Below, one piece after another: positions 1,012-53,080 of a stretch of 64,000 nt of DNA. Under the pieces are notes generated by a model, which was not told the origin of the DNA, did no database searches, and saw only the letters and a program-made list of their open reading frames with translations. Position 1 is the first letter of the stretch; each line of letters starts with the position of its first letter. Location of the stretch: NCBI GenBank assembly GCA_033032865.1, contig JAWHQI010000024.1:2480001-2544000 (forward strand), in the 5' to 3' direction. This stretch comes from Dactylorhiza incarnata. Taxonomy: Eukaryota; Streptophyta; Magnoliopsida; Asparagales; Orchidaceae. The translations under genes and the position numbers were made by a program.

Positions 1012-1025
1012 GTCTCCCACTTGAT
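1012..1025 (-). other. E1 polypurine tract
   Basis: On the minus strand this reads GATCAAGTGGGAGAC immediately before the TGTTGG of the 3' LTR. A GTGGGAGA-type purine tract at this place is the usual plus-strand primer site in plant copia elements. Confidence 0.8.
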
Positions 1026-1975
1026 CACAAAGTATCAACAAAAGTCTCACAAACAATGAGCGGCATCTAGCAATACATCATTGCTACCCAAGCAATTAGA
1101 GTTCATAACTCAACAAGCCTGTCATGACCAATGTATCAGTGTTGTTAAGTCCCTTTGTCCTTTACATCCGGATAGAACTAGAGGCATGGACCGTGTCACC
1201 CTCATAATTGTTCAATCCCAATTTCCTGATCTAGAATAGACTGTCTGAAATTGGTGAGCTCAATATCATATATTGACTCAACCAAGCATGGCCATGCATT
1301 TCTCAGTCTCATTCCATCAAGGGGCCCATGGATGTAACTCCTGTCATGCAGGAGGACAAATATCATTTCTGCTCACACACAAATATCTAAATGATTCGTA
1401 ACATACCCAACAACCACCCTTATCGTCAACCTTTCTCAAGAGAAGACTTTAGATGGCATCAAAGTACACTCTTCCTCACCTGATGAATGCTATGACTTCA
1501 GGTCAAAGGACCACAAACACCATTGTCACTTGAGACCTACTTGTGACACGTTCATATAACAATCCACAAAGTAGTCTCACGGGGGGTCTGTCCAGTACAA
1601 CTTGTTCTTAACAAGTACCCATGTGATGACTTGATATCACAATATCATGACCTGTGAGAATCGGTCATCAGTCAACGCACATGCTGGTCTTATGGTCTCA
1701 TCCTCGCCCTGAATTTCTAGGATGATACCCCGACCAGGGACCATTTAAGAATGAAGCTCCTTATAAAACATAGGCTCTCACATTCAAGTCACGTACTTGA
1801 ATTCCTATGGAAGCAAACACTCTAAGGGCATTTATTATGCTAATTAATCTTATCAGACAGATATAAATGACATAATAAAAGAACTTGCCATAAATAAAAA
1901 ATGAAATACATAGTACATTTTACAATTCATCCAATGAACAAATAACCAACAAATATGCAATCCATAAGGCTCTCA
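1026..1975 (-). other. E1 3' untranslated spacer, no gene seen
   Basis: About 950 bp between the pol stop and the polypurine tract. I find no long reading frame and no recognisable protein motif. The length is longer than usual for a copia 3' UTR. Confidence 0.6.
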
Positions 1976-4018: not shown

Positions 4019-4266
4019 TTTTGTTGGAACTCGATTTAGTGTGAAAGCAGCAGTCTCTAAAGAAAAACCCTAAAAGGAAACGGGCAAATATGCATGACTC
4101 ATCATCGATCGCACCATGTATAACAAGGTACGATTCCTCCTCTCAGAAACACCATTATGTTGAGGTGTTCCGGGCGGAGTGAGCTGTGATACAATACCAC
4201 ACTCTTTCAGATGATCACGAAACTCATGACTCAGATATTCGCTACCTCGATCAGATCAGAGTGCTT
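4019..4266 (-). pseudogene. E1 integrase core segment carrying two stops
   Basis: This short stretch continues the integrase between the two long frames. Read in the pol frame it contains the SDRG motif (second catalytic aspartate region) and TPQHNGVSERRNRT, which holds the catalytic glutamate of the DDE integrase. Two in-frame stops interrupt it. One replaces the arginine expected before SDRG (TGA, about 4258). The other replaces the tryptophan expected in SFWG (TAG, about 4068). Both fit single C-to-T or G-to-A transitions, the usual decay of methylated transposons. Confidence 0.85.
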
Positions 4267-5931
4267 TTATCCTTTTCCCAGTTGGTTCTCCACTTCATTT
4301 TTAAACACTTTGAACTTTTCAAAGGTCTCAGATTTGTTCTTCATAAGAAACACGTATCCGTATCTACTAAAATCATCAGTAAATGTAACGAAGTAGTAGA
4401 ACCCACTTCTAGCCATAGAACTCATGGGTCCGCATACATCACTATGTATTATACCCAAAAGATCATTAACTCTCTCATTACAACTAGTGAAAGGAGCTTT
4501 CGTCATCTTACCTAATAAACATGACTCGCATCTCTCAAATGATTCATAATCAAATGAGTCAAGTAGTCCATCTTTATGGAGCTTGGATATGCGTTTCTCG
4601 TTTATATGGCCTAAACGACAATGGCAAAGGTACGTAGGATTCGAATCATTTGTTTTTAGTCTTTTAGTATTTTCTATGTTATAGATCGGATGGTCTAAGT
4701 TCAAAACATATAAACCATTAAACATTTGGGCAATGCCATAACAAACATCATTCTTATAAATAGAACAACAATTGTTCTTAATTACGAAGGAAAAACCAAT
4801 CATGTCCAAACATGAAATAGAAATAATGTTTCTAGTTATGGCCGGAACATAATAACAATTATCTAGTTCTATTACAAGCCCTGTGGGCAAAGAAAGACGA
4901 TATAATCCTACGGCAACAGCAGCAACTCTTGCTCCATTTCCAACGCGCAGGTCTACCTCTCCTTTACCCAACATTCTTCTCCATGTCAGTTTCTGCACAT
5001 TTATACAAATGTGAGAACCACATCCGATATCCAATACCCAGGATGAAGGAGCAGAAAGGTTTATTTCTATAACGAAAATACCTGAAGTGGAAGTCATACT
5101 TCCCTTCTTCTTCTGCAGATCTTCTAGATACTGAGGACAGTTCCTCCTCCAGTGCCCTGCCTTACCGCAGTGGTGGCACTTCCCTTCCTTCGCCAGACCT
5201 TTCTTTTTCAGTGCAGAAGACTTGGGATCAATAGGAGACTTAGATCCAATCTTCGTCTTCTTAGATCGCTTGGCCTTGACCTTGCTCTTATGCACCATCA
5301 ATATGGGGCTGGCAGGCTTGACCTTCTTCATGTTATTCTCGGCAGTTCTCAACATGCCAAGGAGCTCGGGCAGTGTCTTTTCTATTTCATTCATGTTATA
5401 GTTTAAGACGAACTGCTCATAACTGTCCGACAACGATTGCAGGATCAGATCCGTGGCCAACTCTTGGCCCATGGGAAAACCCAGTTTTTCAAGGTTCTTT
5501 ATATACCCAATCATCTTGAGTACGTGAGTCCCTACTGAGTCTCGAGCTCCCATTTTGCACTGGAATAATGCCTTGGATATGTCAAACCTCTCTTGCCGGG
5601 CTTGCCCCTCGAACATTTTCTTGAGGTGCCCGATTATCTCATAACCACACATGCTCTCGTGTTGCTTCTGAAGCTCAGAGGACATGGTAGCAAGCATGAG
5701 GCATTCCACATCCAAGGTATCATCCTGATACTTCTTGTAAGCATCTCTATCTGCTCTCGAAGCATTTCCGGTCGGCTCTGCAGGGGCTTCCCCTTCCAAG
5801 ACATAGAGCTTGCGCTCTTGCCTGAGAACAGTTCTCAGGTTTCTGTACCAGTCAAGGAAGTTCGTCCCGTTGAGCTTGTCCATCTCAAGAATAGCTCTTA
5901 GGGACAGGGTGGAGTGAGATCCACTTGCCAT
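4267..5931 (-). pseudogene. E1 gag, protease and N-terminal integrase
   Basis: 554 residues from the first ATG after the primer-binding site. Residues 1-200 match the copia gag type (UBN2/Retrotran_gag) with LNGTNFLDWYRNL near the start. A zinc knuckle CHHCGKAGHWRRNC (CX2CX4HX4C) sits at 252-265. The protease active site at 300-304 reads LDIGCGSH where the family has D-T-G or D-S-G, so the catalytic triad is altered. The GAG-pre-integrase HHCC finger (HCRLGHI ... CESCLLG) follows at about 430-475, then the first integrase aspartate in HSDVCGP. The frame ends at QLGKG because one base is missing at about 4270 compared with the expected reading. The protein could not have been processed or integrated. 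Confidence 0.92.
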
Positions 5932-7009
5932 GGATATTCTACAAAGAATTTTGCAAAGTGAAAATTTTAGTACTATATTTCAAAATACATTTTATATATT
6001 TTTAATAAGGACTTTTATTAAAGAGCTCCCACTATTTTAATCAAATCAATAACCCTTGATATCGATTCAGAGAGTTTATGCGAGCTACTCTCTTAGTGGA
6101 CAAGATCCGTATTTCACCAACACCACGAGTCCGCTTTGGCGTTCCTCTCATAATGCGGTTATTTAGGTAGACAACACATGTCAATTGCATCATTATGCAA
6201 CTCTTGTATGGTTGGTGAATAATTCTTTATTCGCATCCATCATATGGAGCATGCCAACCCTATGCCTCTAGACACTCAACCTTTGAGGTCACCTAGTTAA
6301 GTTGGACCCGATGTCGACAGTGGGATATCACAATTATCCACTCGCACCCTTACCAAGATAGATTAATGCACCTTGCTTTGGCAAACCCACACTTCATCGA
6401 TCGAGGCAGGAAGAGTGTCATCCATCGGAAGGCATCCCAAATACTTAATATTAGATAAGGGATTTTTATTTCAAGTGATTAACATTTTAATCATGATTAA
6501 CATTTAATCACAGTGCACAATCAGAAAATAAAATTACAACATTCACATTCCAGATACATCCCAGATGTGCACAAAAACAGTCTATCAACACTTTGACAAA
6601 ACAGGGCTAAATCTGAGCATTTAGAACACTTCTAAATCTTCAGATTTACATGCATTGGACATATGAACAACAACTCCACTTGTGCAGTAGACAAGCTCGT
6701 CTCTCATGTCAGATTCAATAATCTAAACATTTTGTTTCACAAACCATTTTGAGGGACGGTTACTGCAGAGGAGAAACAACCCCTGAAACATGAAAATCGC
6801 AACGCAATCACATGCGTTCCTAGCGGGGTTCCAAAAGATCGCGCCCCTGGCGGGGTCTTAGGGGCAGAGCCCCTAACGGGGTCCAAGGGGCAGCGCCCCT
6901 GGCACCAGAAACCACACAAAATCACATCAAATGTGATATTCCAAGAAGAAATTAGGGCAATTAGAACACTTCTAAATGTCCCAATTTACACGCACTTGAC
7001 CGCAACCTA
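5932..7009 (-). other. E1 5' leader, no gene seen
   Basis: About 1.1 kb between the primer-binding site and gag. There is no convincing coding frame. It includes a short block of self-complementary GC-rich sequence at 6826-6905. Confidence 0.6.
6826..6905. repeat. Short GC-rich inverted and direct repeats in E1 leader
   Basis: Within 80 bp the motifs GGCGGGGTC and ACGGGGTCC alternate with GGGGCAGAGCCCC and GGGGCAGCGCCCC, which are hairpins with 3-5-base loops. It stands out from the AT-rich leader around it and may structure the genomic RNA. Confidence 0.6.
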
Positions 7010-7022
7010 GCTTTGATACCAC
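7010..7022 (-). other. E1 primer-binding site (initiator tRNA-Met)
   Basis: On the minus strand this reads GTGGTATCAAAGC, three bases after the LTR end. It matches the 3' end complement of plant initiator tRNA-Met (TGGTATCAGAGC) with one mismatch. Confidence 0.88.
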
Positions 7023-7025
7023 TAT

Positions 7026-8084
7026 TGGGTTTTCTATACCCCTAACGAGATGACATATCGAATATGCGCAGCGGAAATAAAACAAGAACAACCCAAAAGA
7101 TGCTAACGAATCTTGCGGTTTTCATGATTCAAGAGAATAAGCATATCAAAATACAAAGTACCTTTGCGGGATTGAGTCAACACTCAACCAAGGTGCTCCA
7201 AAGAGAAATCCAAAGATCTGCCTTTGAGTTCTTCAAGAATCGAAATGGATCGATCCCTCTATAGAAGTCCACACAAGCAAAGGAGAACCCTAGCTTCTTG
7301 TCGTACAAGAACTAGGTCGGAGAAGGATGCTCCCAACGTCCCCACGGACTGCTAGATCCGATCCAGGGGAGGCGGCGACCGACGGCGGCGACTAACGGCG
7401 GCGGAAGGCGATCGGCGGACTGGAAGAACGAGATGCCCTCGCGCGGAACAGTTCCGGTCGGCTTCTCGTCCAAAATCGCGAAAGGATTAAGTCTCCGTAA
7501 ACCTAGAATCGCAAGCCCTTTTATACTTAAACGCATAAATCAGGCTATCCGCAGACCAGAACATTTCTGTCCAGATTTACATTCGCCGAATTCGACTAAT
7601 CACTATAAACGAATTCGACTCAGATTCGGCGAAACCATTTCGACGAATTCGACTATATGCTATAGCCGATTCGACTATATAAATTCGGTTATATCATTTC
7701 GTCGAAACCATTTCGTCGAACTGACATATTTCGGCTAAACCCTTTAGTCGAATCTGTTACAATTCGGTTAATCACATTAGCCGAATCGATATAGCCGAAT
7801 TCCATTAGTCGAATCAACATAATTCAGTTAAACCCTTTAGCCGAATTTGACACAGTTCGGTTAAACCCTTTACCCGAATTTGTCTAGCATAAATTCATTC
7901 GTTTAAACTCTTTAAACGATTTCCCTTTGAGACATTCTCAAGTTAATGCCAATCAGTCACAGGATTAGTCCTCCACTCATATCCAATAGGCCAACACAAT
8001 CCTTTCTCCAACTTCTCCAAACGCTTTTATGTGCGACCCTAAGACTAACTGTTGATTGCTTTGAGATCACCTCAGAAACTCCAA
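7026..8084 (-). repeat. E1 5' LTR
   Basis: It starts TGGGTTTTC at 7026 (minus-strand LTR end CCCA) and runs to CTCCAA at 8084. The TATA box is at 7518-7525 on the minus strand. Two blocks present in the partner LTR are deleted at about 7987 and 8036, and CCATTTCGTCGAA is duplicated near 7700. It abuts a TA-rich microsatellite on its outer side. Confidence 0.92.
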
Positions 8085-8556: not shown

Positions 8557-8860
8557 TTGCCCTTCCCCCACCTCCGCCGCCTCCGGAGCCACCGCCGACC
8601 TGACCGGAGGTCACCGGCGAGGTCGCCGGACCCCGACAAACCTGCCGGGGTTGGTCCGGCGGCGCTCCGGCAGGGCCACCGGCGGCGGTGGCCCTGACCG
8701 TGAGGCCCAGATCTGGGCCTCACGGTCAGGGCCACCGCCGCCGGTGGCCCTGCCGGAGCGCCGCCGGACCAACTCCGGCAGGTTTGCCGGGGTCCGGCGA
8801 CCTCGCCGGTGACCTCCGGTCAGGCCGGCGGTGGCTCCGGAGGCGGCGGGGAAGGGCAAC
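8557..8860. repeat. Large GC-rich near-perfect palindrome
   Basis: Two arms of about 150 bp (8557-8711 and 8712-8860) are reverse complements with only a few mismatches and a 6-base indel. There is no spacer: the centre is CCCAGA/TCTGGG at 8711/8712. The arms contain CCGGAGGTCACCGGCGAGG-type sequence. They could extrude as a cruciform or give a very stable hairpin RNA. Confidence 0.92.
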
Positions 8861-11569: not shown

Positions 11570-13321
11570 TCATGGTGTGAGAGATGATGAGGTGAGATGG
11601 GATTCCTTTGGTTCAACCTGAAATCTAGCACATATGCAAGTGGCAAACATGATATCAGGTCTGCTTGCTATTAGATATAGAAGGGATCCAATGATGGCCC
11701 TATAAGTCTTTTGATCTACTGATTTTCCTTTATCATCTTTTTCTATGATGGCATTGGTTGCCATGGGTGTTTTCATGGTAGATGCTGATTCCATACCAAA
11801 CTTTTTGATTAGTTCTTTGGTATATTTTGATTGTGAGATAAAGATTCCTTCACTACTTTGTTTTACTTGTAGCCCTAGGAAGTAGGAGAGTTCACCCATA
11901 CTACTCATCTCAAATTTAGATTGCATAAGATTAGCAAATCTTTTACATAGTTTAGGATGGGTTGAGCTAAAGATAATGTCATCTACATATATTTGAACAA
12001 GGAGGAGTTGGTTTTTATGTGTTCTAGTAAAGAGTGTCTTGTCTACTTTTCCTCTTTCAAAGGAATTTTCTAAAAGAAAATTTGAGAGAGTTTCATACCA
12101 AGCTCTAGGTGCTTGCTTAAGACCATATAATGCTTTGTTAAGTCTATAAACAAAGTTAGGGGAAGAGGGATTAACAAAACCTGGTGGTTGCTCCACATAT
12201 ACCTCTTCTTGCAGATCTCCATTTAAAAAGGCACTCTTGACATCCATTTGGTAGACTTTCATCTTCATGAAGGCTGCATAGACAAGAAAGAGCCTGATTG
12301 CCTCTAATCTGGCTACTGGAGCAAAGGTCTGATTGTAGTATATCCCTTCTTCTTGTCTATATCCTTGTGCTATAAGTCTTGCCTTGTTTCTCACAATTAT
12401 TCCAGTGGAATCTAGTTTGTTCCTGTATACCCATTTTGTACCAATTACAGGGTAGTTTCTTGGTCTTTCAACTAGGTTCCATACTTTGTTTCTCTCAAAT
12501 TGGCCTAGTTCTTCTTGCATGGTCATAATCCAGTGAGGATCACAATTTGCTTCCTCGAACTTCTTTGGTTCAACTTGTGATAGGAAGCATTGGAGCATTA
12601 TCCCATTGGAGACTTGGTGTCTTGTTCTTACTCCTGCATTGGGATCTCCAATCACTTGAGCTTGTGGATGATCTTTCAAATTGATTCCTGTTCTGCCTGA
12701 ATTTGTTAGTTGTTCTTCTACTTCATTCTCAATGGGATCATTGTTCAATTGTTCTTCCTGGACCATGTCCTCTTGTGGAGGAGGGTTTTGAGTGCTCTTT
12801 TCTGAGGTTTCTTGTTCAGACTCCTCACTTGGTTCCTCTAACTGGTTTTCCTTTCCATTTTCTGTGTTCTCTAGAGCTAGTTGCTCAAGCTGGGTTTCTA
12901 TGCTGTTGTTTTCCTGTGGAACAAAACTGGTGGGAGTTTCCTCCCCCTTAAGCAGCATGTTAGTTTCATCAAATACAATGTGCATGGATTCTTCAATCTT
13001 AAGAGTTCTTCTATTGTAGCACCTATAGGCTTTGCTGGATGATGAATATCCCAGAAATATTCCATCATCAGACTTCTTGTCAAATTTGGCAAGATGATCT
13101 TTCCCATTGTTTAGAATAAAGCAAGCACATCCAAAAATTTTAAAATATTTAACAATGGGTGTTTTATTTTTCAGGAGCTCATATGGAGTCTTTGATTTAG
13201 TTTTGTGTATGAGGCTTCTATTTAGAACATAGTTTGCAGTGTTGACTGCTTCAGCCCAAAAGGTTTTTGGTAATCCTGACTCTGCAAGCAGGGTTCTACC
13301 TGATTCTATTAAGGTTCTATT
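11570..13321 (-). pseudogene. E2 pol, left part: integrase end and reverse transcriptase, RNase H deleted
   Basis: The frame is open on the minus strand from the TatA insertion (13321) to a stop at 11570, although the first in-frame ATG is only at 12985. It covers the integrase C-terminal part ([12 protein letters not shown], then [12 protein letters not shown]), a Glu/Gln-rich linker, and the copia reverse transcriptase with [33 protein letters not shown] and YVDDIIF. After [14 protein letters not shown] the frame runs out, and the RNase H motifs seen in E1 are missing. Sequence then jumps to the 3' ORF region, so an internal deletion removed RNase H. Together with 25718-25981 it is one integrase-RT gene split by TatA. 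Across the join (one copy of the 5-bp duplication removed) the frame is continuous. Confidence 0.9.
13317..13321. other. TatA target-site duplication, left copy
   Basis: CTATT immediately before the LTR start TGTTGAAACC. The same five bases follow the other LTR at 25718-25722. Confidence 0.95.
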
Positions 13322-14287
13322 TGTTGAAACCGATTTCTCGGTCTCGTGTGGAGCTCGGGGCCCTCACCGAGATGAGGGGCAGCTAGCCCTTACCGATCCC
13401 TCGGGAGAGGTAAGGTTGACGACTCGAGCAAAGAACAAAGACCCTAGTCTCAGCGAGGAGGTCCCTCCACTAACCCGGAAGATCGTTGAGCGCTTCCCCT
13501 CCCAAGCCAAAGCTAAGACTCGGGCACCTTGGAGAGCTGGAGAGCCCAAACCAAAGCGACCTAGGGAGAGAAGAGCTCAAATATAATGAACCGGTCCCCT
13601 TCCAAGGTGCCCTTTGAGGTCTATTTATAGATTTTAGTTTTGTGGTCTGTCAATAACCAAATCCCGCTGTCCATTCTTACTATCCGCACACCGGACTGGC
13701 CTGCCAACAGCCAAACTCCGCTGTTTGGAGAGGCTAAGTGCAGACCGCCGGGGGCCTCTTGGTAAAAAATCCCTTCCCGGACTTTTACGGGGCGAGCCAG
13801 CCCGCTTCGCGACCTCCCTCGCGAGTGGAGCTCGCGAGCCTCTGGGTCGGCGAACCCCAGAGGTATTATCAGCACTCACTCTAGGCGGGCTCGCCTAGCG
13901 GACCCCTTCCTCGAATGGTTGGGCTCGCTCATAGCGACCCGGCCAAGCCGACTGCCCTCGCGAGCGGAGCTCGCGACCCCCTGGGTCGGCGAACCCCAGG
14001 ATGGCTATCCGCACCCCAAAATGGCTAACTGTACCCCAAGAGTGGCTAACTGTACCCCAAGGTTCCGGGCTCGCCTGGCGAGCTCCCTCCTCAACTGGTC
14101 GGGCTCGCATGCTCTGCCCTCGCGAGCTTCGAAGGAGCCGGTTACCCTCCCTTCGCTGGGCTCGCTCGCCTGCACAGTCTCTTGCTCTTCCTTGGCCTGC
14201 CTCGCCGGAGATCAGGGTTCGCCCCTCTTGGCTCGCCTCCTTGAGCGCGAGCTTTGGTTGCTTCCTGGCGAACATCGGGGTTGTACA
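13322..14287 (-). repeat. TatA 3' LTR
   Basis: 966 bp from TGTTGAAACC to GGGTTGTACA. It differs from 24752-25717 at 13403, 13451, 13582, 13657 and 14101 only. A minus-strand TATA box (CTATAAATAG) is at 13621-13630. The outer half is rich in CTCGCGAG and GCTCGC motifs. Confidence 0.97.
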
Positions 14288-14401: not shown

Positions 14402-14409
14402 TATAAATA
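14402..14409 (+). promoter_or_regulatory. TATA box of antisense gene A
   Basis: TATAAATA on the plus strand, 78 bp before the gene A start codon and 115 bp inside the LTR junction. The spacing fits a transcription start near 14435 and a short 5' UTR. Confidence 0.65.
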
Positions 14410-14479
14410 CTGCCCACCGAGAGTGGTGATCAAGCCTTCCCCTTTGTTCCTTTCTCGCCGAAATCGTTCTTCCTTCAGG

Positions 14480-15701
14480 ATGTCCACCAAGCAGAGCGCG
14501 TTGGAACAACTGAAGGCTTCTAGGGAGATGGCGAAAGCTCGGGCCGCTGAGCGCAACGCCTGGATGTTCAACCCTGCTACCTCTCCCCAGACCAAGGGAG
14601 CCATGACGATTAGGAGGTCGCCGGGGGAGGACATGACATTGCCTCCTGATTCCCCACCTCCGCCGAATACCGTGCTCGCACAACAGGTATCCTCAGTCTA
14701 AATTCTTTACTTCGGCCCCTTGCTCATTCCCTTCCCTCTCGCAGAATCCTCCTCCGGAGGACCGCCTGGCAAGCCTTACGCTGACGACTTTCAGCGCTCC
14801 GTCCCCCGCGAAGCTGGGGTTGCTAGACGTTGGGGTCGGGACTTCGTCCCAACAGGCACCTCTCTTGCAACCTCGTAAGTCACTCGCATCCTACTTTATC
14901 TCCGCCTAAGCCCGTGATGCCCACACGTCGGTGGCCTATGCAGATACCCCATCGTCGAGTCCCAAGGAGAAAGTCTCCACCCCGGCGAGTTCGCCGGTCC
15001 CGCCTAAGGTTACCGTGGCGACCCCAGGCTTCGGTCTGATGGGCAAGCGAAGTCCGGGCGGCTCGCTTCTCGACGGCGCCCAAGTCGCGAAGAGAGTGGT
15101 ATACCCTCCTGGACTGGGGAACCCCCACGTCTCGGGATTCCGCGAAAACTTCCAGGGTCGGCCGGAGTCTTCGCGCAAGCCCCGCCGTGAATCTCCCTCC
15201 TCGCCAGGTCAGCATATTTTCGCGAGCTCCCATCTCTTGCCCGCCCTCGGGCCCTTCTGACCCTTCGTTGAAATCCCAGGAGCCACCCCTGAGTCAGAGC
15301 ACGGGAGGATGGAGATGTCGCCACCGCCTTCGCCTAGCCAGATCGAAGACTTCTTGGGTGACCCTGGCGACCCCGTGCGGATGAAGAGTCGGGTGTCCGA
15401 GGTGCTTCAGAAGCACGACATGATGTTACGCGAGTTGGAGGAGCGGTATGACGCGGACCGGGCTGCTTTTGACGAGAGATTCGCCGTGTTGGAAGACGCG
15501 AATGCGCGCTTAATCGCCGAGGCGGAGCCGGTGCCTCGCGCAGATGTTACCTCGCCCGGCGTGCACATCTCGCGGGGCGAGGATCAAGCGCACCTAATCC
15601 TGCGCGAGTTTAAAGCGCTTCGCGAATACCATTATCCGAGAGTGCCGCCGCGTGCGGGCAAGCGGGGTCGGGGTCGCTGGAAATGGCTTCCCTACCCCTG
15701 A
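14480..15701 (+). CDS. TatA antisense gene A, four exons, 340-aa Pro/Ser-rich coiled-coil protein
   Basis: Exons: 14480-14686, 14745-14874, 14944-15207 and 15280-15701. Introns are 58, 69 and 72 bp, all GT-AG with pyrimidine-rich 3' ends, phases 0, 1 and 1. The four pieces join into one 1,023-nt frame ending at TGA 15699-15701, whereas unspliced reading soon meets stops. I chose the ATG at 14480 as the first one after the TATA box. Residues 1-69 are Ala/Arg-rich (SREMAKARAAERNAW). Residues 70-200 are Pro/Ser-rich and probably disordered. Residues about 238-280 form a heptad-rich helix (VSEVLQKHDMMLRELEERYD). The C-terminus is basic (PPRAGKRGRGRWKW), possibly a nuclear signal. I recognise no catalytic domain. 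It lies head-to-tail with gene B and opposite to gag-pol. A decayed relative with the same exon-1 phase is at 54086-55821. Confidence 0.78.
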
Positions 15702-16228
15702 GGCTCCAGTGGGTTTTTAATTCCGCTACTCTTTTGCTTGTATTTCCTTTATGACGCCTGTTGAACAATAACCGGTATGGTAATATTCGCGAGTCTGTCG
15801 TGACTCGCCTTTTATCGTTTTCCATTTTTAACTTTTCCCTTTATTTCTGTGGTGTGCATGTGATTTATTCGGCTCGTCCGCTGTATTTGATATGATCGCC
15901 CTCGCAAAGTGCTTGCGAGCTTCTGTGCCTCGCTATGCCCGGACCCCTTTTTCTCACGGGCCGGCCTTGGGTGGGACTCAATTATCGCGCGATGGCGAGC
16001 CCTGGCTCGCAAGACCGCAGTCCCTTTGAGCAGAAAACTACTTTATTTTAGTTATCCGCACTCCCGACGCTTCGATTCCCGTGCCCACCCGAATTTCTTA
16101 TAAATAGCTCGGATTCATTCTCCTACCCGTCACATTTATTTCTCCCGTCTTCTCGCGTCTACGCTCATCTCCGTCCTCGCAAGATCGTGTTCGCGCTCGC
16201 TGCTTGTAGGTTGCCTCTTCCTGACTTG
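15702..16228 (+). other. Spacer between antisense genes A and B
   Basis: About 527 bp with no open frame of note. It holds the gene A 3' UTR and the gene B promoter. No ATG lies between the TATA box at 16099 and the chosen gene B start. Confidence 0.6.
16099..16107 (+). promoter_or_regulatory. TATA box of antisense gene B
   Basis: TATAAATAG about 130 bp before the gene B ATG. The TatB relative has a TATA box (53811-53820, minus) about 120 bp before its gene B start, so the spacing is kept. Confidence 0.7.
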
Positions 16229-18170
16229 ATGCGGACGAATCAGCAACTGGGAGCGGATGGCGAGAGCGAGGGGCGGTCAAAGTGCGCCTCAGCGTTTCAG
16301 GCCCACGAGTTCTATTGTGCGAACATCACAGCCGAGGAGTATAAACTCGCCGTGGACCGCTATCTCCCAGAGGGCTATTCAGCCCGCTGTCCAAGCGAGA
16401 ATTCTACTTTAAACGAGACCGAGGCTGACGAGCTCGCGATCCCCGTCGCGCACTTCGAGAATGGGTTGCGACTCCCTCTGTGGCCTGAAATTCGTCAGGT
16501 ACTTCGCCTGGCCTTCTCGCCGCTTCACGTTCGCTATCGCGACTTTCTCATCGTTCTTTGTAGGTGTTGCGATATTACGGAGTGTTACCGAGCCAGTTGA
16601 CCCCAAATGCGATCGCGGATATTGTCGCGTTCGCCAGTTACCTGCGGGAGGAGAGGATCGAATTCAGCCTCCTCGTCTTCCGCAAGGTATTCTCCTTCCG
16701 CGCCTTCCGAGACGGGACTACTTATTTCGCAAGTCAGCACGTCACGGTCTGCGAGGCGGTGAATAAGAGTCACTATTGGACTCAGAAGTTCCTTCTAGTG
16801 AAGGGACCCTTCGGCAATCTCCACTTCACCCCCCTCCAGCCGGATGACGCCACTTACCGCCCTCCGAGCTCGCTGAGCGGCGCCGACGCTAAACTCCTCC
16901 AATACCTCTCCGGCAAAAACTTCGAAGTCGTCTATCTGCGGCGCAACGTTGATTCGTTACTCGCCGTTCCTCAAGGGGAAGGTAGGGCTCGGTCTCGCCC
17001 CACTCTCCTTTCCTTTCTTCGCTGCATAACACTCTTACTTTACAGGCGAGCGCGAGATCCCTGTCAACCCCCCGCACGCGCAAGGTGCCACTCTCACGGC
17101 GGACACTCTCGCGACCGCAGCGGCAGAGGCTTGCCGCGACCTTCCCGCCGTCGGGTCCGGCAAGAAGCGGCCTCCTTCTGCGAGTCAACCGGGTTCGCGG
17201 CCCTCCAAGAAGTTGAAGGGAAAGACCATCGCTACCAAGGATATGAGCGCGGTCGTTTATCTAAGCGAGACCGACGGCTCGCCTCCTTCCCCTGCGAAAA
17301 AACCTGACCCCCCGGCGGACCAGGGTGTTGGGAGTTCTTCCGTGACCCCCCAACCCAAAGGCCACAGAAACTTCGGTCTGGGCGAGAAAGTTTCCGACGT
17401 CCTCGGCGAACCCCTGCTCGCTTGGGACCCCACTGCCAACCGGATTTCCTGCTCCACCCTTCACCCCTCCTGGGTGGAGCTCGGTAAGGCCGGGGAGGAG
17501 GCGTTCTCTCTCTCCTTCGGCTTATATGGCCGCGAGGACGCCGTTGCCTACAAAGACATGGGACCACGGCAGCTGGTTTATGAAGAAATGCGAGCCCAGT
17601 TCCGTTCGACGGAACTCGCGCACATGGCGGGGCGCCGCTATCTGCAGGCGGATAGGGATATCCGCGCGTACCGGGAGGAGCTCAAGAGAGCTCGCGAAGA
17701 GATCAAAGGTCTTAAAGAGAAGGAGGAGGTGACGGAAAGCCTTCTCGCCGGGATGCAGGGCAAGATGGTAAGTGATCCTTGGGTCTCTTTTCCTTGCCGT
17801 TCGCGACCTCTAGCTTTCTCCTAACTCGTTTGACGCTCAGGATGCCGACGTTGCCACCAAGCTCCTCGCTCGCAATGGCGAGCTGGAGTTGGAGAATACG
17901 ATGTTGAAGGCTCGAGTGGATGAGCTGGTTCGCAGCGTGCTACCCCCCTCTCCTGGGCGAGTCGACCCCCAACAGAAGGCTGCCGAAAGTGAGGAGCAGA
18001 GGCGGCGAGACGCACAGGAGGTCGCCAACCTTGTCTTCACGACCCTTAAGGATGCGAGCCTGCTGGCCGAAGATGCGATGGAGTTCACAGCGGAAGACGT
18101 CTGCCCGGACCTCTTCGCCTTGGCCCCCTGGTTGGGGGCTCGCAAAGATGGCGAGGACCTTCCAGAATGA
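16229..18170 (+). CDS. TatA antisense gene B, four exons, 579-aa PF04195-domain protein
   Basis: Exons: 16229-16498, 16564-16981, 17046-17767 and 17841-18170. Introns are 65, 64 and 73 bp, GT-AG, phases 0, 1 and 0. The 1,740-nt joined frame ends at TGA 18168-18170. Residues about 70-200 match the plant 'putative gypsy type transposon' domain (Pfam PF04195, Transposase_28): HFENGLRLPLWPEIRQ, then VLRYYGVLPSQLTPNA, then FSLLVFRKVFSF and YW-containing blocks. Intron 1 falls inside this domain. A Ser/Pro/Lys linker follows. Two helical, charged stretches suggest coiled coils: about 423-470 (YREELKRAREEIKGLKEKEE) and 471-505 (LELENTMLKARVDEL). The domain's biochemical role is not established; I would not call it a transposase. 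The protein is complete and undamaged while gag-pol of the same element is frameshifted. Confidence 0.85.
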
Positions 18171-18623
18171 CTTCCCTTTTTCCTTCCCTTCTTGTGAATG
18201 TATATTATTCTTTTTGGGCTGGCGAGATCGCCGCCGAACATTGAAGGATCTCGTGATAGTTTTTCTTTTGTTAACATTTATGATCATGCTTGTGTTCATT
18301 TCTTTCCTCGCATTGGGTTTCTTTTCAACCTCTCTTGGCTAATTGTTACGCGGTAGTGTTCTCGGAGGGCTCGCGAACAGGCATGTCTGGGCTCGCCTCG
18401 CCAAGGTTCCCTTTTCGCGGATTACGCGAACTCGGGTTGTCGCTGTCCGCGGTTGCTACCCGGCGAACCTAACCTTGGCGAGCATGGACACAGGCATCCC
18501 GCGAGCTGAACTTCTCCGATTATAGCATTTCAACCCGCTACCTTAGGCTTCACCTGCCTCGACTCAAGCCCTTCTGTCTCTAACACCTCAACCAATCAGC
18601 ACAGCCCTTGACCCTTGTTAGTA
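18171..18623. other. Spacer after antisense gene B
   Basis: About 450 bp with no gene seen. It holds the gene B 3' UTR and leads into the 97-bp array. Confidence 0.55.
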
Positions 18624-19011
18624 GCCTCTCCAGAGATCAACCAAAACCCCCCGTCTAGGTGAGATCCCGGGAGTGGAATCGATCTGGGGCCATCCAGCAC
18701 CAATATTTCCAACCTTGCCAGCCTCTCCAGAGATCAACCAGAACCCCCCGTCTAGGTGAGAGCCCGGGAGCGGAATCGATCTGGGGCAATCCAGCACCAA
18801 TATTTCCAACCTTGCCAGCCTCTCCAGAGATCAACCAGAACCCCCCGTCTAGGTGAGAGCCCGGGAGCGGAATCGATCTGGGGCAATCCAGCACCAATAT
18901 TTCCAACCTTGCCAGCCTCTCCAGAGATCAACCAGAACCCCCCGTCTAGGTGAGAGCCCGGGAGCGGAATCGATCTGGGGCAATCCAGCACCAATATTTC
19001 CAACCTTAGTA
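18624..19011. repeat. 97-bp tandem repeat, four copies
   Basis: Units start at 18624, 18721, 18818 and 18915 (GCCTCTCCAGAGATCAACC) with an exact 97-bp period. The first unit carries a few substitutions; units 2-4 look identical. The array occupies the spacer between the ends of two convergent genes: pol on the minus strand and gene B on the plus strand. Small open frames across it are shadows. Confidence 0.97.
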
Positions 19012-19118: not shown

Positions 19119-20279
19119 TCAAGGGGCATCCCTTCCACATCCTGGAGGTGATACCCCCCCCGACTTGAGCACCTTGCTTACAATATATGGGCCTTCCCAG
19201 TTGGGGTTAAGCTTACCCACTGTGGCCCCTCTGCCGGCCGCATCGACCTTCTTCAGGACTAGGTCCCCTTTCTGAAAGTGTTTGATCCGGATATGTTTGT
19301 CAAAATATCGAGCCATCCGCCTCTTGACCTCTTCCTGCCTGATGGTGGCCAAGTCCCGGAGTTCTTCCACCAGGTCCAAGGATATCCTCTGCTCGGCATT
19401 GTTACCTTCTAGCCACTCTTCATCCTCCTCGCCTGCAGCGGTCACCCGGGGGGTCTTTACCTCGAACTCTATGGGGAGAACGGCCTCGGACCCGTGGGAG
19501 AGCTTGAACGGGATCTCCCCGGTGGCGGTATTCGGAGTAGTCCTCATGGCCCAGAGGACGGAGGGTAGTTGTTCCACCCAACTTCCTCGTAGGTTTTCCA
19601 CTTTCTTTTTTAGCAGGTTGACGATTATCTTGTTCGCCGCCTCCACTTGCCCATTGCTCCTCGGGTGGTGGACTGAAGCAAACCTGAGGTCAATGCCGAG
19701 CTGAGTGCAAAAGTCGACAAACTCTTCACTCGCAAACTGTGGCCCATTGTCCGTTACTATGGCTAGAGGGAGCCCATGTCTGCAGATTATTCCCCCCCAC
19801 ACAAAATTCCTTACAACCTGGGAGGTTACCTTAGCTAGCGCCTTCACCTCTACCCACTTGGAGAAGTAGTCGATCATGACTAGCAGGAACTTCCTCTGAC
19901 CGCTGGCTTGGGGAAAGGGGCCGACCAGGTCTAACCCCCATATGGCGAAGGGCCAGGGGGCCGTGATGGTCCGGAGCCTCTGAGCGGGGAGGAGTTGGAG
20001 CGGAGCATAGAGTTGGCACTTCTGACACTTTCTTGTGAACTCTGCTGCATCCTTGCTGAGAGTGGGCCAGAAGTAGCCTTGTCTCAACACCCTCCCTTCC
20101 AGGGTCCGACTCCCGGAGTGACTGTCGCACTCCCCGAAGTGGATTTCTTCCAGCACCCTCGGGACCTCTTTCTCGGAGACACAACGAGCCAGGAGTCCCG
20201 AGAGAGTCTTTCTATATAGCCCCCCCTGCATGCAAAGAGTAGTATGCGGACTTATACCTGAAGCGCCTCTTGTCCACAT
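19119..20279 (-). CDS. TatA integrase (third pol frame)
   Basis: A 386-residue open frame. The true domain joins the upstream frame at a G run (20219-20226). The HHCC zinc-binding region is present (HFGECDSHSG, then CQKCQLYA). The DDE core shows GLDLVGPFP, TDNGPQFAS and the HPRSNGQVEAANK block that holds the catalytic Glu. The C-terminal part has GKLNPNWEGPYIV, typical of the plant gypsy integrase tail. The last residues of this frame are wrong: a run of eight G at about 19154-19161 shifts the reading just after KVLKSGG. In the neighbouring frame the normal tail continues to a stop near 19083. The methionine at 20279 is not the native start, because integrase is released from the polyprotein. 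Confidence 0.92.
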   Translation of the reverse strand: MWTRGASGISPHTTLCMQGGLYRKTLSGLLARCVSEKEVPRVLEEIHFGECDSHSGSRTLEGRVLRQGYFWPTLSKDAAEFTRKCQKCQLYAPLQLLPAQRLRTITAPWPFAIWGLDLVGPFPQASGQRKFLLVMIDYFSKWVEVKALAKVTSQVVRNFVWGGIICRHGLPLAIVTDNGPQFASEEFVDFCTQLGIDLRFASVHHPRSNGQVEAANKIIVNLLKKKVENLRGSWVEQLPSVLWAMRTTPNTATGEIPFKLSHGSEAVLPIEFEVKTPRVTAAGEEDEEWLEGNNAEQRISLDLVEELRDLATIRQEEVKRRMARYFDKHIRIKHFQKGDLVLKKVDAAGRGATVGKLNPNWEGPYIVSKVLKSGGVSPPGCGRDAP

Positions 20280-20752
20280 CCTCTCCAGGGAACTGCCCGG
20301 AGGATAGGAAGGTGATGAATGGATCCATCCACGAGGCCTGCTGATCTACTTCCATCGACTCTCCCTCCTCGATGGAGGGCCGGAAGAGTTCCGAAGTCGT
20401 TCCCCCCGCTCGAGGACCGAACTTGGCTAGGAGGTCCGCCTGGGTGCTCTCCTCCCTCGGCACATGTTTGATTGAGAAGGTGCGGAACTGCCCGATGACT
20501 CCCTTAACCTTCTCCAGGTATAGTAGGAGGGTTGGATCCTTTGCTTCATACTCTCCTTTGATCTGGCATGCCACCACCATGGAGTCTGTGGAGACCTCCA
20601 CGTCCTGCACACCCAGTTCCCGGGCCAGCCGAAGGCCCGCTATCACTGCTTCGTACTCCGTCTGGTTGTTGGTGATCGGGAAACGGATGTTCAAGGCTTG
20701 CTCAATCCGAGTCCCCTGAGGACTCACCAGGACTATTCCCCCCCCCCGAAGG
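20212..20752 (-). CDS. TatA second RNase H (aRH) domain (second pol frame)
   Basis: This frame continues the polyprotein after a one-base shift at a run of ten G (about 20738-20747). It reads GGGIVLVSPQG, TNNQTEYEAVIAGL, and VSTDSMVVACQ, ending KHVPREESTQADLLA. These are the D-E-D type motifs of an RNase H different from the one fused to the RT. Its first part (WKMLVDGASG) is encoded at the end of the preceding frame. A second RNase H at this place defines the Tat lineage. The frame stops at 20212 because of a run of seven G at about 20220-20226; the integrase follows in the next frame. Confidence 0.87.
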
Positions 20753-23700
20753 AGTGTTTTCCCGACGCTCCGTCCACCAACATCTTCCATGCTTCCGGGG
20801 GAGGTGGCTCGTGCTCCCCCACTTCGGCCGCGTAGTCGGCCATGAAGTCTGCCACTGCTTGAGCCCTGATGGATGTCCTGGGTACGAAGGTGATATTGAA
20901 CTCGCTTAACTCCACGGACCACTTTTCCAACCTTCCTGAGTGTTCCACCCCTTCCATGATTTTGCGGAGCGGATGGTCGGTCACTACTTTAATTGAATGG
21001 GCTTGAAAGTAAGGCCGGAGCCTCCGGGCCGATACCACCAAGGCGAAGGCTAACTTTTCTAGGATTGGGTATCGGAGTTCCGCCTTCTTCAGCACTCGGC
21101 TAACATAGTAGATTGGGAACTGTTTCTTCCCCTCCTCCCGGATTAGCACGGAACTTACTGCCTCGGATCCTACCCCTAGGTATAGAGATAGGTCCTCTCC
21201 TGGTCTCGGTCCCTGGAGCAGAGGGGTTTGAGTGAGCTGTTCTTTCAGGGCTTGGAAGGCCCTCTCGCATTCCGGGGTCCATTCGAACTTCTTGTTTCCC
21301 CGCAGTACTTTGAAAAAAGGTGCACATTTTTCTCCCGCCTTGGAGAGGAATCTACTGAGCCCAGCCAATTTCCCTGTGAGGCTCTGGACCTCCTTCGGAT
21401 TCCTCGGCGACTCTAATTCCATCACCGCTTTAACTTTGTCCGGGTTGGGCTCCACTCCCGTGGGGGTGAGCAGATGGCCCAGGAACTTCCCTCGGCTTGC
21501 CCCGAAGACACACTTCAAGGGATTGAGCTTCATCTTGTACCGCCGCAGGGTCCCAAATGTCTCTTCGAGGTCTCGGAGGTGGGTCCCGAGGTCTCGGCTC
21601 TTAACCATGAGGTCGTCGACATAGACCTCTAAATTTCTTCCTTTCTGTTCGCGGAAGACCCTATCCATCATCCTTTGGTACGTTGCCCCTGCGTTCTTGA
21701 GCCCAAAGGGCATCATCTTATAGCAATAACATCCATCCCCCGTGATGAAGGAAACGTCCTTAATGTCCGGGGGATGCATGCGGATTTGATGGTAACCTGA
21801 AAAAGCATCTAAGAAGGACATTACAGAAAAACCGACGGCCGAGTCAACCAGCGCGTCGATTCTGGGCAAGGGGTAGCAATCTTTCGGGCATGCTTTATTA
21901 AGAAGTGAAAAATCGATACACATACGCCACTTACCTCCACCCTTCTTCACCATAACGACATTGGAGACCCAGCCTGGATACTGGATCTCCGATACAAATC
22001 CGGCCTGCAGGAGTTTGCCCACCTCCTCGCGGATGGGCCCTTCTAGCTTGTCTGCGACGGCCCTCCTCTTCTGGCGGATGGGGCGGGCACCGGGGTCGAG
22101 GTTGAGGCGATGGCACGCCACATCCGCATCGATCCCGGGCATTTCTGCGGCGCTCCAAGCGAAGACGTCCACGTTCTGTTGCACGCAAGCTAGAATCTCC
22201 GCTTGATCTCCTGGGCTGAGTCCTCCGCTGACCCGGACTTTTTCCACCACCCCCAGCCGGGTGATGACCTCGAGCTCCACGACCTCGTCCACGGCCTCCA
22301 ACCGGGACTGCTCCCCGCAAGCCTTTTCTTCCTCGGCACAAGCGGGAGCCGGGATCTCTTCCTCGACTCCCTCCCCTAACACCATCAGCTCTTCCGCCCT
22401 TTCCTCCTGGGCCTTCTCCTCTTCTTCCTTTCTCTCCGCCCGGGGTATCTCAGCCACCCCTTCCTGGGCATGAACTTCACCTCCCTTCTTCTCTTCAGCC
22501 ACCTTCAGACCTCCGGCTTCGGCTACCTCCTCCATCACCTTATCCCACTCCTCGGCTTCTCCCATCCAGGAGATGGTGTTGACAGCCGTCACGTAGCACT
22601 GTCTTGCTACCTTGGGATCCCCCCTGACCCGCACCTGGACCCCTCCGTCGTTGAACTTGAGGCACTGATGAAAAGTGGAAGGGACGCAACGGAACGCGCT
22701 GATGAGTGGCCGTCCGAAGATGGCGTTGTAACTGCTCGGGGCGTCCACTATGACAAAGCGACAGTTCCGAGACTGCCCACCCAGGGTCACATGGAGCCCT
22801 ACCCCTCCTTCTACTTCCTTTCTCTCTCCTAAAAATCCGAACAGAGGGCCATCCGAGGCCAACACCCTTCTGGGCTCCACCTCCATCTTGTCGAATGCCT
22901 TCTTGAAGATGACATTGACCGAACTCCCATTGTCCACTAGGATTCGGGAGACGGTGAAGTTCTCGATCGCCGTCTGGATGACCAGCGCGTCGCAGAATGG
23001 GTCTTCGTAGCTCGGCATGTCCTTTTGGGTGAAAATAATTTTTTCGGCCGGGGGTGGAGCGGTGGATGTTGACGCTACGCTCCGGCGGTAGATGGTATGG
23101 AGACTAGCCTTGCGGGTTGCCTCCACCCCTACCCCCCCATGGATCACTCTGATCCCTCCTCTATTCCCCAGATCTGCTCTATCCTCACATCTTTCCTCCT
23201 CCTCCTCCCGAGGTTCCACCTCCGCGATCCTTAATGGTTGCTGCGGTGGTGGCGCGGGTGCTCGGCCCCTCTTCACCTCCGGGAACTCCGGACAGGTGTC
23301 CGTGGAGTGGCCTTCCACATCGTGGAAGATGCAATAGGGCACCGCCGCTTCCCTTGCCCCGGTCTCTGCTATCCTGTTCCTTCTTCTCCTAGCGGCCGCC
23401 GTCTCCGCTTCTCCTCCTCTTCCCCTTCCTCTTCCCCGGCCAATTGCCATGGCCTGTTGAGGTGGGGGAGGCAACTGCATCGGGCCCTGCCTCCACCCCA
23501 ACTGGGGGGGTCTCCATTGTCCCTCGAAACGGTTACCCCTTCCTGGGCCATAACCCCTTCCTTGCCCCTGCACTCCTCCACCTTGCGGCCTCCATCCCCC
23601 CTCCGGGGCCCGGGGCTCTTCTCTTCTTCTGACCTCTTGCTGCCTCATCTCCGGCTCACTGAGCTTTGACAGCCTCTTGGTGAGCTCTGGGTTGGCTTCT

Positions 23701-24695
23701 TCGCTTGCTACTTCCTCCGCCACCCTCTCCATCAGCTCCTCATAGGAGACGGGGGCCTTCCTTTTCAATGCCATCTTGAAGAAACTTTCCTTCAACCCGA
23801 CCGTGAAGGCGAGTTGAAGTGCAAACCCGGGCACCTCCTGAGTGAGCTGCACTTCCTCCTGGAACCGATCCGCGTACTGAGCCAACGTCTCCCTGGACTC
23901 CTGCTTCACCGCGAAGAGGGAATCAGCGTCTTTCTTCCTCCTCTTTGAAGTTGAAAATCTCAACAAAAAACTTCGGCGCAGGTCCTCGAACGCGTAGATG
24001 GAGCCTGCCGGAAGTGAATGAAACCATTCCCTGGCCTTCTCCTTGAGAGTGACGGCGAAGAGCCGACACTTGAAGGCATCGGACATCGGCCTGATGGAGA
24101 CCGAGTCCTCGAAAGACTGCAGATGCTGAACTGGGTCATCTCTGCCATTGTAGTAAACTCTATCCCATTCCCCGAATCCCGCTGGAATGGGTGCAGACAA
24201 CACTAATTCGCAGAAGGGGCTTCCCCCTCCTACCATCTTCTCTCGCTCGGCTCGCGGACCCAGCTCGCTCGCCAAGCTTGGGATCGCACTCACGAGGGCG
24301 ACGCTCGCCTGAACCACCCCGACTGTCGTCGCATCTTCCTGGCGCGCGCTCGCCTGCGCCGCGCTCGCTGGGGCAGAGCTCGTCGGCACCGAATTCGCCG
24401 GCGCGGAGCTCGCTAACACCGGGCTCGCCGGACTGGCGAACAGCACTCGCCCTTCCCTGTCATGTCCTGGTTCAATGGCAACTTCTTTTCCAGCCCTTCC
24501 TCCTGGTGCACTCTCGCCGACTGCTGTTGGGGGAGTGGTCGCCTGAGGTGCCGGGGTCGCAAACTCACTTCGCAGAGCCGTGACCGTGAACCCCAAGGTG
24601 TCGAGCACCTCCTTCCTGAAATCCGCGAACATCCTAGCCATTGCTTCCTGAGGGGTCTCGCCGAACTCCTCGCCCTGCTCTTCATCCCCAGCCAT
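20733..24695 (-). CDS. TatA gag-protease-RT-RNase H polyprotein (first frame)
   Basis: 1,320 residues from the first ATG after the 5' LTR. Gag core at about 185-330 (EWDRVYYNGRDDP, KAREWFHSLPAG). A Gly/Arg-rich tract at 365-440 is followed by a CX2HX4HX4C knuckle at 455-468 (CIFHDVEGHSTDTC), a variant usual in Tat. The protease active site at 586-592 is LVDNGSS, with Asn where D-T-G is standard; non-canonical residues here are seen in this lineage. A Glu-rich linker fills 720-800. RT occupies about 890-1080, with YVDD at 1025-1028. The RT-linked RNase H at 1150-1250 has TDHPL. The frame then enters the second RNase H (VDGASG) and is cut off by a one-base expansion of a G run at about 20738-20747. 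Confidence 0.94.
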   Translation of the reverse strand: MAGDEEQGEEFGETPQEAMARMFADFRKEVLDTLGFTVTALRSEFATPAPQATTPPTAVGESAPGGRAGKEVAIEPGHDREGRVLFASPASPVLASSAPANSVPTSSAPASAAQASARQEDATTVGVVQASVALVSAIPSLASELGPRAEREKMVGGGSPFCELVLSAPIPAGFGEWDRVYYNGRDDPVQHLQSFEDSVSIRPMSDAFKCRLFAVTLKEKAREWFHSLPAGSIYAFEDLRRSFLLRFSTSKRRKKDADSLFAVKQESRETLAQYADRFQEEVQLTQEVPGFALQLAFTVGLKESFFKMALKRKAPVSYEELMERVAEEVASEEANPELTKRLSKLSEPEMRQQEVRRREEPRAPEGGWRPQGGGVQGQGRGYGPGRGNRFEGQWRPPQLGWRQGPMQLPPPPQQAMAIGRGRGRGRGGEAETAAARRRRNRIAETGAREAAVPYCIFHDVEGHSTDTCPEFPEVKRGRAPAPPPQQPLRIAEVEPREEEEERCEDRADLGNRGGIRVIHGGVGVEATRKASLHTIYRRSVASTSTAPPPAEKIIFTQKDMPSYEDPFCDALVIQTAIENFTVSRILVDNGSSVNVIFKKAFDKMEVEPRRVLASDGPLFGFLGERKEVEGGVGLHVTLGGQSRNCRFVIVDAPSSYNAIFGRPLISAFRCVPSTFHQCLKFNDGGVQVRVRGDPKVARQCYVTAVNTISWMGEAEEWDKVMEEVAEAGGLKVAEEKKGGEVHAQEGVAEIPRAERKEEEEKAQEERAEELMVLGEGVEEEIPAPACAEEEKACGEQSRLEAVDEVVELEVITRLGVVEKVRVSGGLSPGDQAEILACVQQNVDVFAWSAAEMPGIDADVACHRLNLDPGARPIRQKRRAVADKLEGPIREEVGKLLQAGFVSEIQYPGWVSNVVMVKKGGGKWRMCIDFSLLNKACPKDCYPLPRIDALVDSAVGFSVMSFLDAFSGYHQIRMHPPDIKDVSFITGDGCYCYKMMPFGLKNAGATYQRMMDRVFREQKGRNLEVYVDDLMVKSRDLGTHLRDLEETFGTLRRYKMKLNPLKCVFGASRGKFLGHLLTPTGVEPNPDKVKAVMELESPRNPKEVQSLTGKLAGLSRFLSKAGEKCAPFFKVLRGNKKFEWTPECERAFQALKEQLTQTPLLQGPRPGEDLSLYLGVGSEAVSSVLIREEGKKQFPIYYVSRVLKKAELRYPILEKLAFALVVSARRLRPYFQAHSIKVVTDHPLRKIMEGVEHSGRLEKWSVELSEFNITFVPRTSIRAQAVADFMADYAAEVGEHEPPPPEAWKMLVDGASGKHSFGGGE

Positions 24696-24738
24696 AACTC
24701 TTCCTTGGGACTTTCTTGAACCAGCCGCGCTCCACGCT

Positions 24739-24751: not shown

Positions 24752-25717
24752 TGTTGAAACCGATTTCTCGGTCTCGTGTGGAGCTCGGGGCCCTCACCGA
24801 GATGAGGGGCAGCTAGCCCTTACCGATCCCTCAGGAGAGGTAAGGTTGACGACTCGAGCAAAGAACAAAGACCCTAGTCTTAGCGAGGAGGTCCCTCCAC
24901 TAACCCGGAAGATCGTTGAGCGCTTCCCCTCCCAAGCCAAAGCTAAGACTCGGGCACCTTGGAGAGCTGGAGAGCCCAAACCAAAGCGACCTAGGGAGAG
25001 AAGAGCTCAAAGATAATGAACCGGTCCCCTTCCAAGGTGCCCTTTGAGGTCTATTTATAGATTTTAGTTTTGTGGTCTGTCAATAATCAAATCCCGCTGT
25101 CCATTCTTACTATCCGCACACCGGACTGGCCTGCCAACAGCCAAACTCCGCTGTTTGGAGAGGCTAAGTGCAGACCGCCGGGGGCCTCTTGGTAAAAAAT
25201 CCCTTCCCGGACTTTTACGGGGCGAGCCAGCCCGCTTCGCGACCTCCCTCGCGAGTGGAGCTCGCGAGCCTCTGGGTCGGCGAACCCCAGAGGTATTATC
25301 AGCACTCACTCTAGGCGGGCTCGCCTAGCGGACCCCTTCCTCGAATGGTTGGGCTCGCTCATAGCGACCCGGCCAAGCCGACTGCCCTCGCGAGCGGAGC
25401 TCGCGACCCCCTGGGTCGGCGAACCCCAGGATGGCTATCCGCACCCCAAAATGGCTAACTGTACCCCAAGAGTGGCTAACTGTACCCCAAGGTTCCGGGC
25501 TCGCCTGGCGAGCTCCCTCCTCAACTGGTCAGGCTCGCATGCTCTGCCCTCGCGAGCTTCGAAGGAGCCGGTTACCCTCCCTTCGCTGGGCTCGCTCGCC
25601 TGCACAGTCTCTTGCTCTTCCTTGGCCTGCCTCGCCGGAGATCAGGGTTCGCCCCTCTTGGCTCGCCTCCTTGAGCGCGAGCTTTGGTTGCTTCCTGGCG
25701 AACATCGGGGTTGTACA
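24752..25717 (-). repeat. TatA 5' LTR
   Basis: 966 bp, same length as 13322-14287, five substitutions apart. The minus-strand TATA box CTATAAATAG is at 25051-25060, placing the element's sense transcription start near 25025. Confidence 0.97.
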
Positions 25718-25981
25718 CTATTCTTCCTCTCAGCAACTCCATTTTGTTGGGGAGTTCTAGGTGCTGAGAAGCTTTGTTTAATACCTTCTTCCTCACAGAA
25801 ACTACAAATCTGATTCTCAAATTCAGTCCCATGGTCACTTCTTATAATTGAAACATTTGTATTGAACTCAGATTGAATCTGTCTTATGAATTTTGAGAGA
25901 ATTTTATGGGTTTCAGATTTAACTCCTAGAAAGAATACCCAGCTAAACCTAGAATAATCATCAACAATGACCAACTTCTCA
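25718..25981 (-). pseudogene. E2 integrase, right part, truncated
   Basis: The minus strand reads VIVDDYSRFSWVFFL (first integrase aspartates), then IIRSDHGTEF (second) and TPQQNGVAERKN (catalytic Glu). The TatA insertion falls a few codons after this Glu. Copia similarity stops at about 25981. Gag, protease, primer site and 5' LTR of E2 are not found further right, so E2 is also 5'-truncated. Confidence 0.9.
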
Positions 25982-34840: not shown

Positions 34841-34854
34841 ATCTCCCCCTATTT
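34841..34854 (-). other. E3 polypurine tract
   Basis: The minus strand reads AAATAGGGGGAGAT before the LTR start TGTTGGGT, nearly identical to the E2 tract. Additional GGGGGAGA tracts lie at about 35070 and 35133. Confidence 0.8.
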
Positions 34855-35237: not shown

Positions 35238-35254
35238 CATCCACTGTCCAAATG
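35238..35254 (-). pseudogene. E3 protease remnant
   Basis: The minus strand encodes LDSGCS, the copia protease active site, followed by WYMT and a stop at about 35214. It is the only trace of pol in E3. Confidence 0.65.
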
Positions 35255-46523: not shown

Positions 46524-46525
46524 AT

Positions 46526-53069: not shown

Positions 53070-53080
53070 CCATTAGGCGA

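Follow-up and report, generated by a model that had tools for sequence, protein, structure and literature searches.

The closest described counterparts of the antisense genes reported here come from Retand, a group of plant long terminal repeat (LTR) retrotransposons. Of 63 Retand clusters surveyed, 61 had antisense open reading frames (ORFs) with PF04195, a domain not reported outside transposable elements, and among 104 antisense ORFs with a length of 600 bp or more, 57 contained this domain (PMC11963269; this and the other PMC sources are cited for portions of their text). DNA binding by PF04195 is a prediction in that work, and its ORFs were called unspliced, using ORF Finder with a minimum of 600 bp together with shorter ORFs that contain PF04195. 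Another unspliced survey, based on getorf with a minimum of 250 codons, placed the Transposase_28 domain in 23% of Retand elements (PMC6317226). A review of Grande, RIRE2, Retand and PvRetro13 called for the study of antisense and spliced transcripts and described Grande gene23 as having its own antisense promoter and a nuclear product (PMC7264820). Because antisense PF04195 ORFs are a hallmark of Retand and gene23 has an antisense promoter of its own, the layout of the element that we analysed was already known, and the original prediction made for this locus had overstated its rarity. What appears to be new, judging from the sequence, is the intron-bearing, spliced form of the antisense genes, which we modeled in a Tat/Retand-type element of the orchid Dactylorhiza incarnata. 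The element is located in a stretch of 64,000 nucleotides (contig JAWHQI010000024.1, positions 2,480,001–2,544,000 of the forward strand), hereafter the window, and all positions refer to this window. In the open literature we found no paper that models introns in the plant antisense genes of such elements, and the word “intron” does not occur in the searched text of PMC11963269 and PMC7264820; other papers may contain such models, and we claim no priority.

The two genes, A and B, occupy the plus strand opposite gag-pol, between pol and the 3′ LTR, and each is composed of four exons. The gene A exons at 14480–14686, 14745–14874, 14944–15207 and 15280–15701 were obtained from the spliced-ORF search and join into a frame of 340 codons. 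Gene B has a spliced frame of 579 codons, and all four of its exons are modeled in accordance with an alignment of relatives. Exon 1 (16229–16498), recovered like exon 2 by the spliced-ORF search as well, is followed by exon 2 (16564–16981), which according to profile scores contains the bulk of a PF04195 domain interrupted by intron 1, by exon 3 (17046–17767) with a bipartite basic stretch, and by exon 4 (17841–18170), in which a heptad count identifies leucine-rich heptads. The six introns measure 58, 69, 72, 65, 64 and 73 bp, all six are of the GT-AG type, and the frame is kept across every junction. These coordinates confirmed the two intact antisense models that had been proposed. We consider gene B almost certainly a real spliced gene and gene A probably one; the case for gene A is the weaker of the two, as it has no direct homologue and its N-terminus resembles one Platanthera protein only. 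For the locus as a whole, the reading that we favour, with moderate confidence, is a spliced nuclear gene pair with its own TATA promoters that regulates the element.

Each gene is preceded by a TATAAATA box, the predicted promoter of gene A at 14402–14409 and that of gene B at 16099–16106 on the plus strand. The boxes stand 78 and 130 bp ahead of the respective start codons with no intervening ATG in either case, as had been claimed, and they are the only plus-strand occurrences of this motif between 13000 and 19000. Only TATA-type boxes were considered, and both of these are situated outside the 3′ LTR, past its end at 14287. Based on this arrangement, genes A and B probably have promoters of their own. 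The same motif is also found on the sense side in the LTRs of this element and of a second copy described below (13622–13629 and 25052–25059 on the minus strand; 56297–56304 on the plus strand), and the whole window contains 11 copies vs 3.0 expected.

The PF04195 (Transposase_28) domain predicted for gene B was borne out by a profile comparison of the joined protein, which scored 44.6 bits (E 1.7e-11, profile positions 4–68) vs a curated cut-off of 26.2. The unspliced ORF that starts at exon 2 reached 27.9 bits and matched only from profile position 23, and the unspliced ORF upstream of intron 1 had no profile match up to E 10. The domain is thus whole only with intron 1 removed, which supports this intron independently of the annotation of other genomes. 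Retention of any single intron led to an early stop and a truncated protein in six of six cases. The claim that the module must be spliced to give whole proteins was therefore upheld, with gene B and the promoter layout additionally backed by the relatives and the second copy.

The exons have a guanine-cytosine (GC) content of 0.56–0.65, which eases long frames, and both models might accordingly be regarded as chance frames in GC-rich DNA. We consider this vanishingly improbable. Our search identified the longest ATG-to-stop frame with at most three introns of 50–90 bp, using a splice filter with hand-set thresholds (donor at least 5 of 9 and acceptor at least 6 of 11 consensus points); the weakest splice sites of the models were acceptors with 6 points and a donor with 6 points. 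The filtered search yielded exactly 340 codons for gene A and 579 for gene B, neither of which was matched in any of 500 dinucleotide shuffles, whereas the longest frames on the opposite strand under the same filter were only 159 and 105 codons. With unfiltered GT-AG introns, the length of gene B was still attained in none of 500 shuffles, nor in any of 60 in an earlier, smaller run. The fraction of T was 0.25–0.37 in the introns vs 0.16–0.23 in the exons. For gene B, the PF04195 match, five relatives and the shuffle null together refute the chance explanation.

These relatives were identified among 7994 scored candidates from annotated proteins at E of 0.001 or less; they share 37–58% identity with gene B, and three are from Platanthera zijinensis and two from P. 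guangdongensis. The alignment runs uninterrupted over the intron-1 junction in all five relatives, over the intron-2 junction in three and over the intron-3 junction in two. At the intron-2 junction P0004 is out of frame, and P0005 carries 24 additional residues, the first and last letters of which are compatible with a 72-base GT...AG intron; at the intron-3 junction P0004 and P0005 switch to unrelated tails and P0001 differs. From these peptides we infer that the P0005 insert and the P0004 and P0005 tails are signs of unspliced introns kept by annotators. The start of P0002 resembles the start of gene A with a local score equalled by two of 5000 shuffles, and this protein is apparently an annotation merger of an upstream gene A with a gene-B relative. 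When the A-like start of P0002 served as the query, P0002 itself was the sole match. Viral contigs scanned with the gene-B alignment contained no relative.

The window also contains a decayed second copy of this region at 56.4–53.1 kb, in which we identified, in this order, an LTR end, a gene-A-like region, a TATAAATA box and gene B, all on the minus strand. The LTR-like end (55995–56380) was oriented by the antisense genes of this copy and its bounds were read by eye; 87 bp spanning this end and adjoining bases match the first element at 64% (E 9.9e-5), and a partner LTR was not seen within the window. The decayed gene-A-like region (54150–55821) has its start codon at 55821 and an approximate end. 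The TATAAATA box at 53811–53818 stands 123 bp before the ATG at 53695 (130 bp in the first element) of the decayed gene-B copy (53079–53695), the homology of which covers 53653–53079 and includes stops and a frame change. Comparison of gene B with this copy by tblastn gave two stretches of 37% and 30% identity (E 1.75e-30), and the copy scored 39.0 bits against PF04195. The second copy has lost about two thirds of protein identity and yet keeps the order of its parts, so the layout recurs despite divergence. This bears on the view that two ordinary plant genes were captured by the element in inverted orientation, introns and promoters included, and are carried as passengers without a role. Introns and TATA boxes of their own do give A and B the look of host genes, but the layout is found again in a strongly diverged copy and PF04195 was reported from transposable elements only, among them 61 of 63 Retand clusters (PMC11963269), which makes capture very unlikely.

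Several results weigh against the favoured reading. The gene-B relatives are confined to one plant genus and were compared as annotated proteins, not as DNA. The two gene-B copies differ at 92, 75 and 120 sites by codon position over 189 codons (two stop codons dropped), and the NG86 method gave a nonsynonymous divergence (dN) of 0.66 and a synonymous divergence (dS) of 2.96, which is saturated. The second copy lacks intron 1 of gene B and has 348 uninterrupted bases over the intron site (around 53440 on the minus strand). It had been proposed that the introns survive retrotransposition, and this claim is only partly upheld. The genomic RNA would contain the introns in reverse-complemented form, which would leave their splice signals unread, and the introns could persist through RNA copying; the second copy lacking intron 1 speaks against the claim as a general statement. 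The difference between the copies may be a gain or a loss, both being possible; a loss, if it occurred, would suggest past reverse transcription of a spliced antisense RNA.

The remaining adverse results concern gene A and the protein features. A direct search returned no relative of gene A among 7997 candidates, its comparison with P0002 by BLASTP gave an E of only 0.14, and no similarity to it could be detected in the gene-A-like region of the second copy, where 1501 of 5000 shuffles scored as well. With bare GT-AG introns the length of gene A was attained in seven of 500 shuffles (three of 60 in the earlier, smaller run), and no Pfam family matched gene A up to E 1. Gene B could therefore be real and gene A an accidental frame, as the shuffle counts and the missing Pfam match and relative would allow. 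We regard this as quite unlikely, because none of the 500 shuffles reached gene A under the splice filter and because gene A has its own TATA box and resembles P0002 at its start. In the second copy, moreover, the gene-A-like region opens with 66 codons up to a GTGAGT in phase 0, similar in length and phase to the 69 codons and phase 0 of gene A exon 1. Gene B, P0001, P0002, P0003 and P0005 have a bipartite basic stretch in equivalent positions; such a stretch arises in 120 to 600 of 2000 single-sequence shuffles. The AlphaFold2 model, based on nine alignment rows, reached a mean predicted local distance difference test (pLDDT) score of 46 and was unusable, and a fold search from this low-confidence model gave three meaningless matches (best E 3.8).

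The C-terminal part of gene B is a heptad region. Of the coiled coils that had been proposed for this protein, what stands is a simple heptad count and weak, generic matches; a sequence search against solved structures returned five matches, all of them weak (best E 0.013), and four fall in the C-terminal heptad part. Profile searches found no match to the basic leucine zipper (bZIP) domain in gene A or B. We also considered kinship of PF04195 to the plant mobile domain and rejected it, as PF10536 matched none of the six gene-B family members up to E 10.

Based on these features, we hypothesise that RNA polymerase II would transcribe the antisense strand from two internal promoters, with starts just past 14402 and 16099, and that the transcripts would be spliced and then translated. 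The proteins would re-enter the nucleus, gene B by means of its basic stretch, and gene B may dimerise through its C-terminal heptads. They could then act on the LTR-driven transcription of the element or on its genomic RNA, by analogy with HBZ in human T-cell leukaemia virus type 1 (HTLV-1). A nuclear regulatory role of the A and B proteins is a reasonable conjecture, which we put forward tentatively; it is hinted at by the basic stretch and the C-terminal heptads of gene B, by the promoter and nuclear product published for Grande gene23 (PMC7264820) and by the DNA binding predicted for PF04195 (PMC11963269). An alternative is that the antisense transcript itself matters, by pairing with the genomic RNA and feeding small-RNA silencing or impeding reverse transcription, with the frames being secondary. 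Given its position, an antisense RNA that covers the 3′ region is complementary to the genomic RNA, a role of antisense RNA was raised in PMC7264820, and antisense control of Ty1 is cited in PMC12786077. The long frames, the PF04195 domain that is whole after splicing and the relatives at 37–58% identity nevertheless indicate protein coding, and we judge the RNA explanation unlikely as the main one; the two roles may coexist.

The host of the two genes is a Tat/Retand-type Ty3/gypsy element, as identified by its two LTRs and target site duplication, its dual RNase H and its antisense PF04195 region. On the minus strand, which is its sense strand, the 3′ LTR (13322–14287; ends TGTT...TACA) and the 5′ LTR (24752–25717, from LTR-to-LTR alignment) are 99.48% identical, with five mismatches in 967 aligned columns, and the insertion is therefore young. 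The 5-bp target site duplication CTATT was read in the flanking DNA at 13317–13321 and again at 25718–25722. One minus-strand ORF (20733–24737) contains gag, reverse transcriptase and the first RNase H (matches to Retrotrans_gag, RVT_1, RT_RNaseH and RT_RNaseH_2), a second (20212–20988) the other RNase H (RVT_3) and a third (19119–20345) the integrase (rve and Integrase_H2C2). The presence of both RT_RNaseH and RVT_3 corresponds to the dual RNase H described as a Tat-family trait (PMC9289625). The integrase ORF ends at 19119, 4.8 kb from the 3′ LTR, and this interval holds both plus-strand genes and a 97-bp tandem repeat with four copies (18623–19007), which separates gene B from pol. Pol is distributed over several frames, and its two breaks are close to C runs (ten C from 20738 and seven C from 20220); because they adjoin homopolymers, a real frameshift and an assembly error are both possible. 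The original prediction had contrasted undamaged antisense proteins with a frameshifted pol, and the frames are indeed intact and pol split; given the recent insertion and the homopolymers close to the pol breaks, this contrast is a weak sign of selection.

A Ty1/copia pol ORF (RVT_2 in 11573–13363) adjoins the element, the insertion of which appears to break that ORF. Positions 1–7982 are occupied by a minus-strand Ty1/copia element with gag-pol ORFs at 1976–5979 and direct repeats at 1–876 and 7093–7982 (94–98% identity), which are probably its LTRs. At 33441–47834 a repeat pair 13.1 kb apart (33441–34696 and 46529–47834) surrounds a pair 6.6 kb apart (37148–38344 and 43783–44941), and this region looks like an LTR element within another LTR element. 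An inverted repeat at 8567–8856 has directly abutting arms of 145 nt that are 96% complementary, with a 195-nt direct repeat adjoining it. Repeat arrays are located at 58952–60031 and 61016–61667, one with 156-bp units and the other with spacing steps of about 43 bp.

The element is most similar to the Retand elements with TRP28 (PF04195) described by Vicient in 2025, which also feature an antisense PF04195 gene between pol and the 3′ LTR, tandem repeats and the start of a fused gag-pol ORF; their pol-to-LTR regions of 2.9–6.6 kb bracket the length found here (PMC11963269). In contrast to the published Retand ORFs, the PF04195 gene is modeled here with four exons and is accompanied by another gene of four exons, with a TATA box ahead of either gene. 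We propose, as a possibility that falls somewhat short of even, that the Retand antisense region forms a second unit, transcribed and spliced separately, which consists of two regulatory genes with introns and dates back to the ancestor of the lineage, and that the published short antisense ORFs are its exons. Each strand of the element would in that case act as a genome of its own, the one serving replication without splicing, the other spliced and serving regulation. If the genes do carry introns, unspliced ORF surveys fragment them and may miss the partner gene, whereas splice-aware models would provide full proteins for expression, localisation and selection analysis, so that the question of their role would become testable. 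Introns would also be a direct marker of antisense transcription in an element that is copied through RNA.

Established introns in plant LTR elements include that of Ogre, a relative in the Tat group that likewise carries extra genes (PMC6317226). In Ogre the intron belongs to the sense strand and lies within the polyprotein region, and the extra domain is commonly PF10536 (PMC6317226), to which none of the six gene-B family members scanned gave a match up to E 10. Maize Grande gene23 resembles A and B by its antisense orientation and its position between pol and the 3′ LTR, and its promoter and nuclear product are published (PMC7264820); unlike in Grande, two genes are present here, and the likeness is one of layout and published description (PMC7264820). 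HBZ and APH of the HTLV viruses are spliced antisense retroelement genes with nuclear products that repress the sense promoter (PMC10186651), which we cite as an analogy and not as a claim of homology. HBZ has a bZIP domain and is expressed from a promoter in the 3′ LTR (PMC10186651), whereas A and B have no bZIP match and their TATA boxes are located outside the LTR; the C-terminal heptads of gene B are a point of likeness. With their function being predicted, genes A and B may best be likened to nuclear regulatory genes of the HBZ type.

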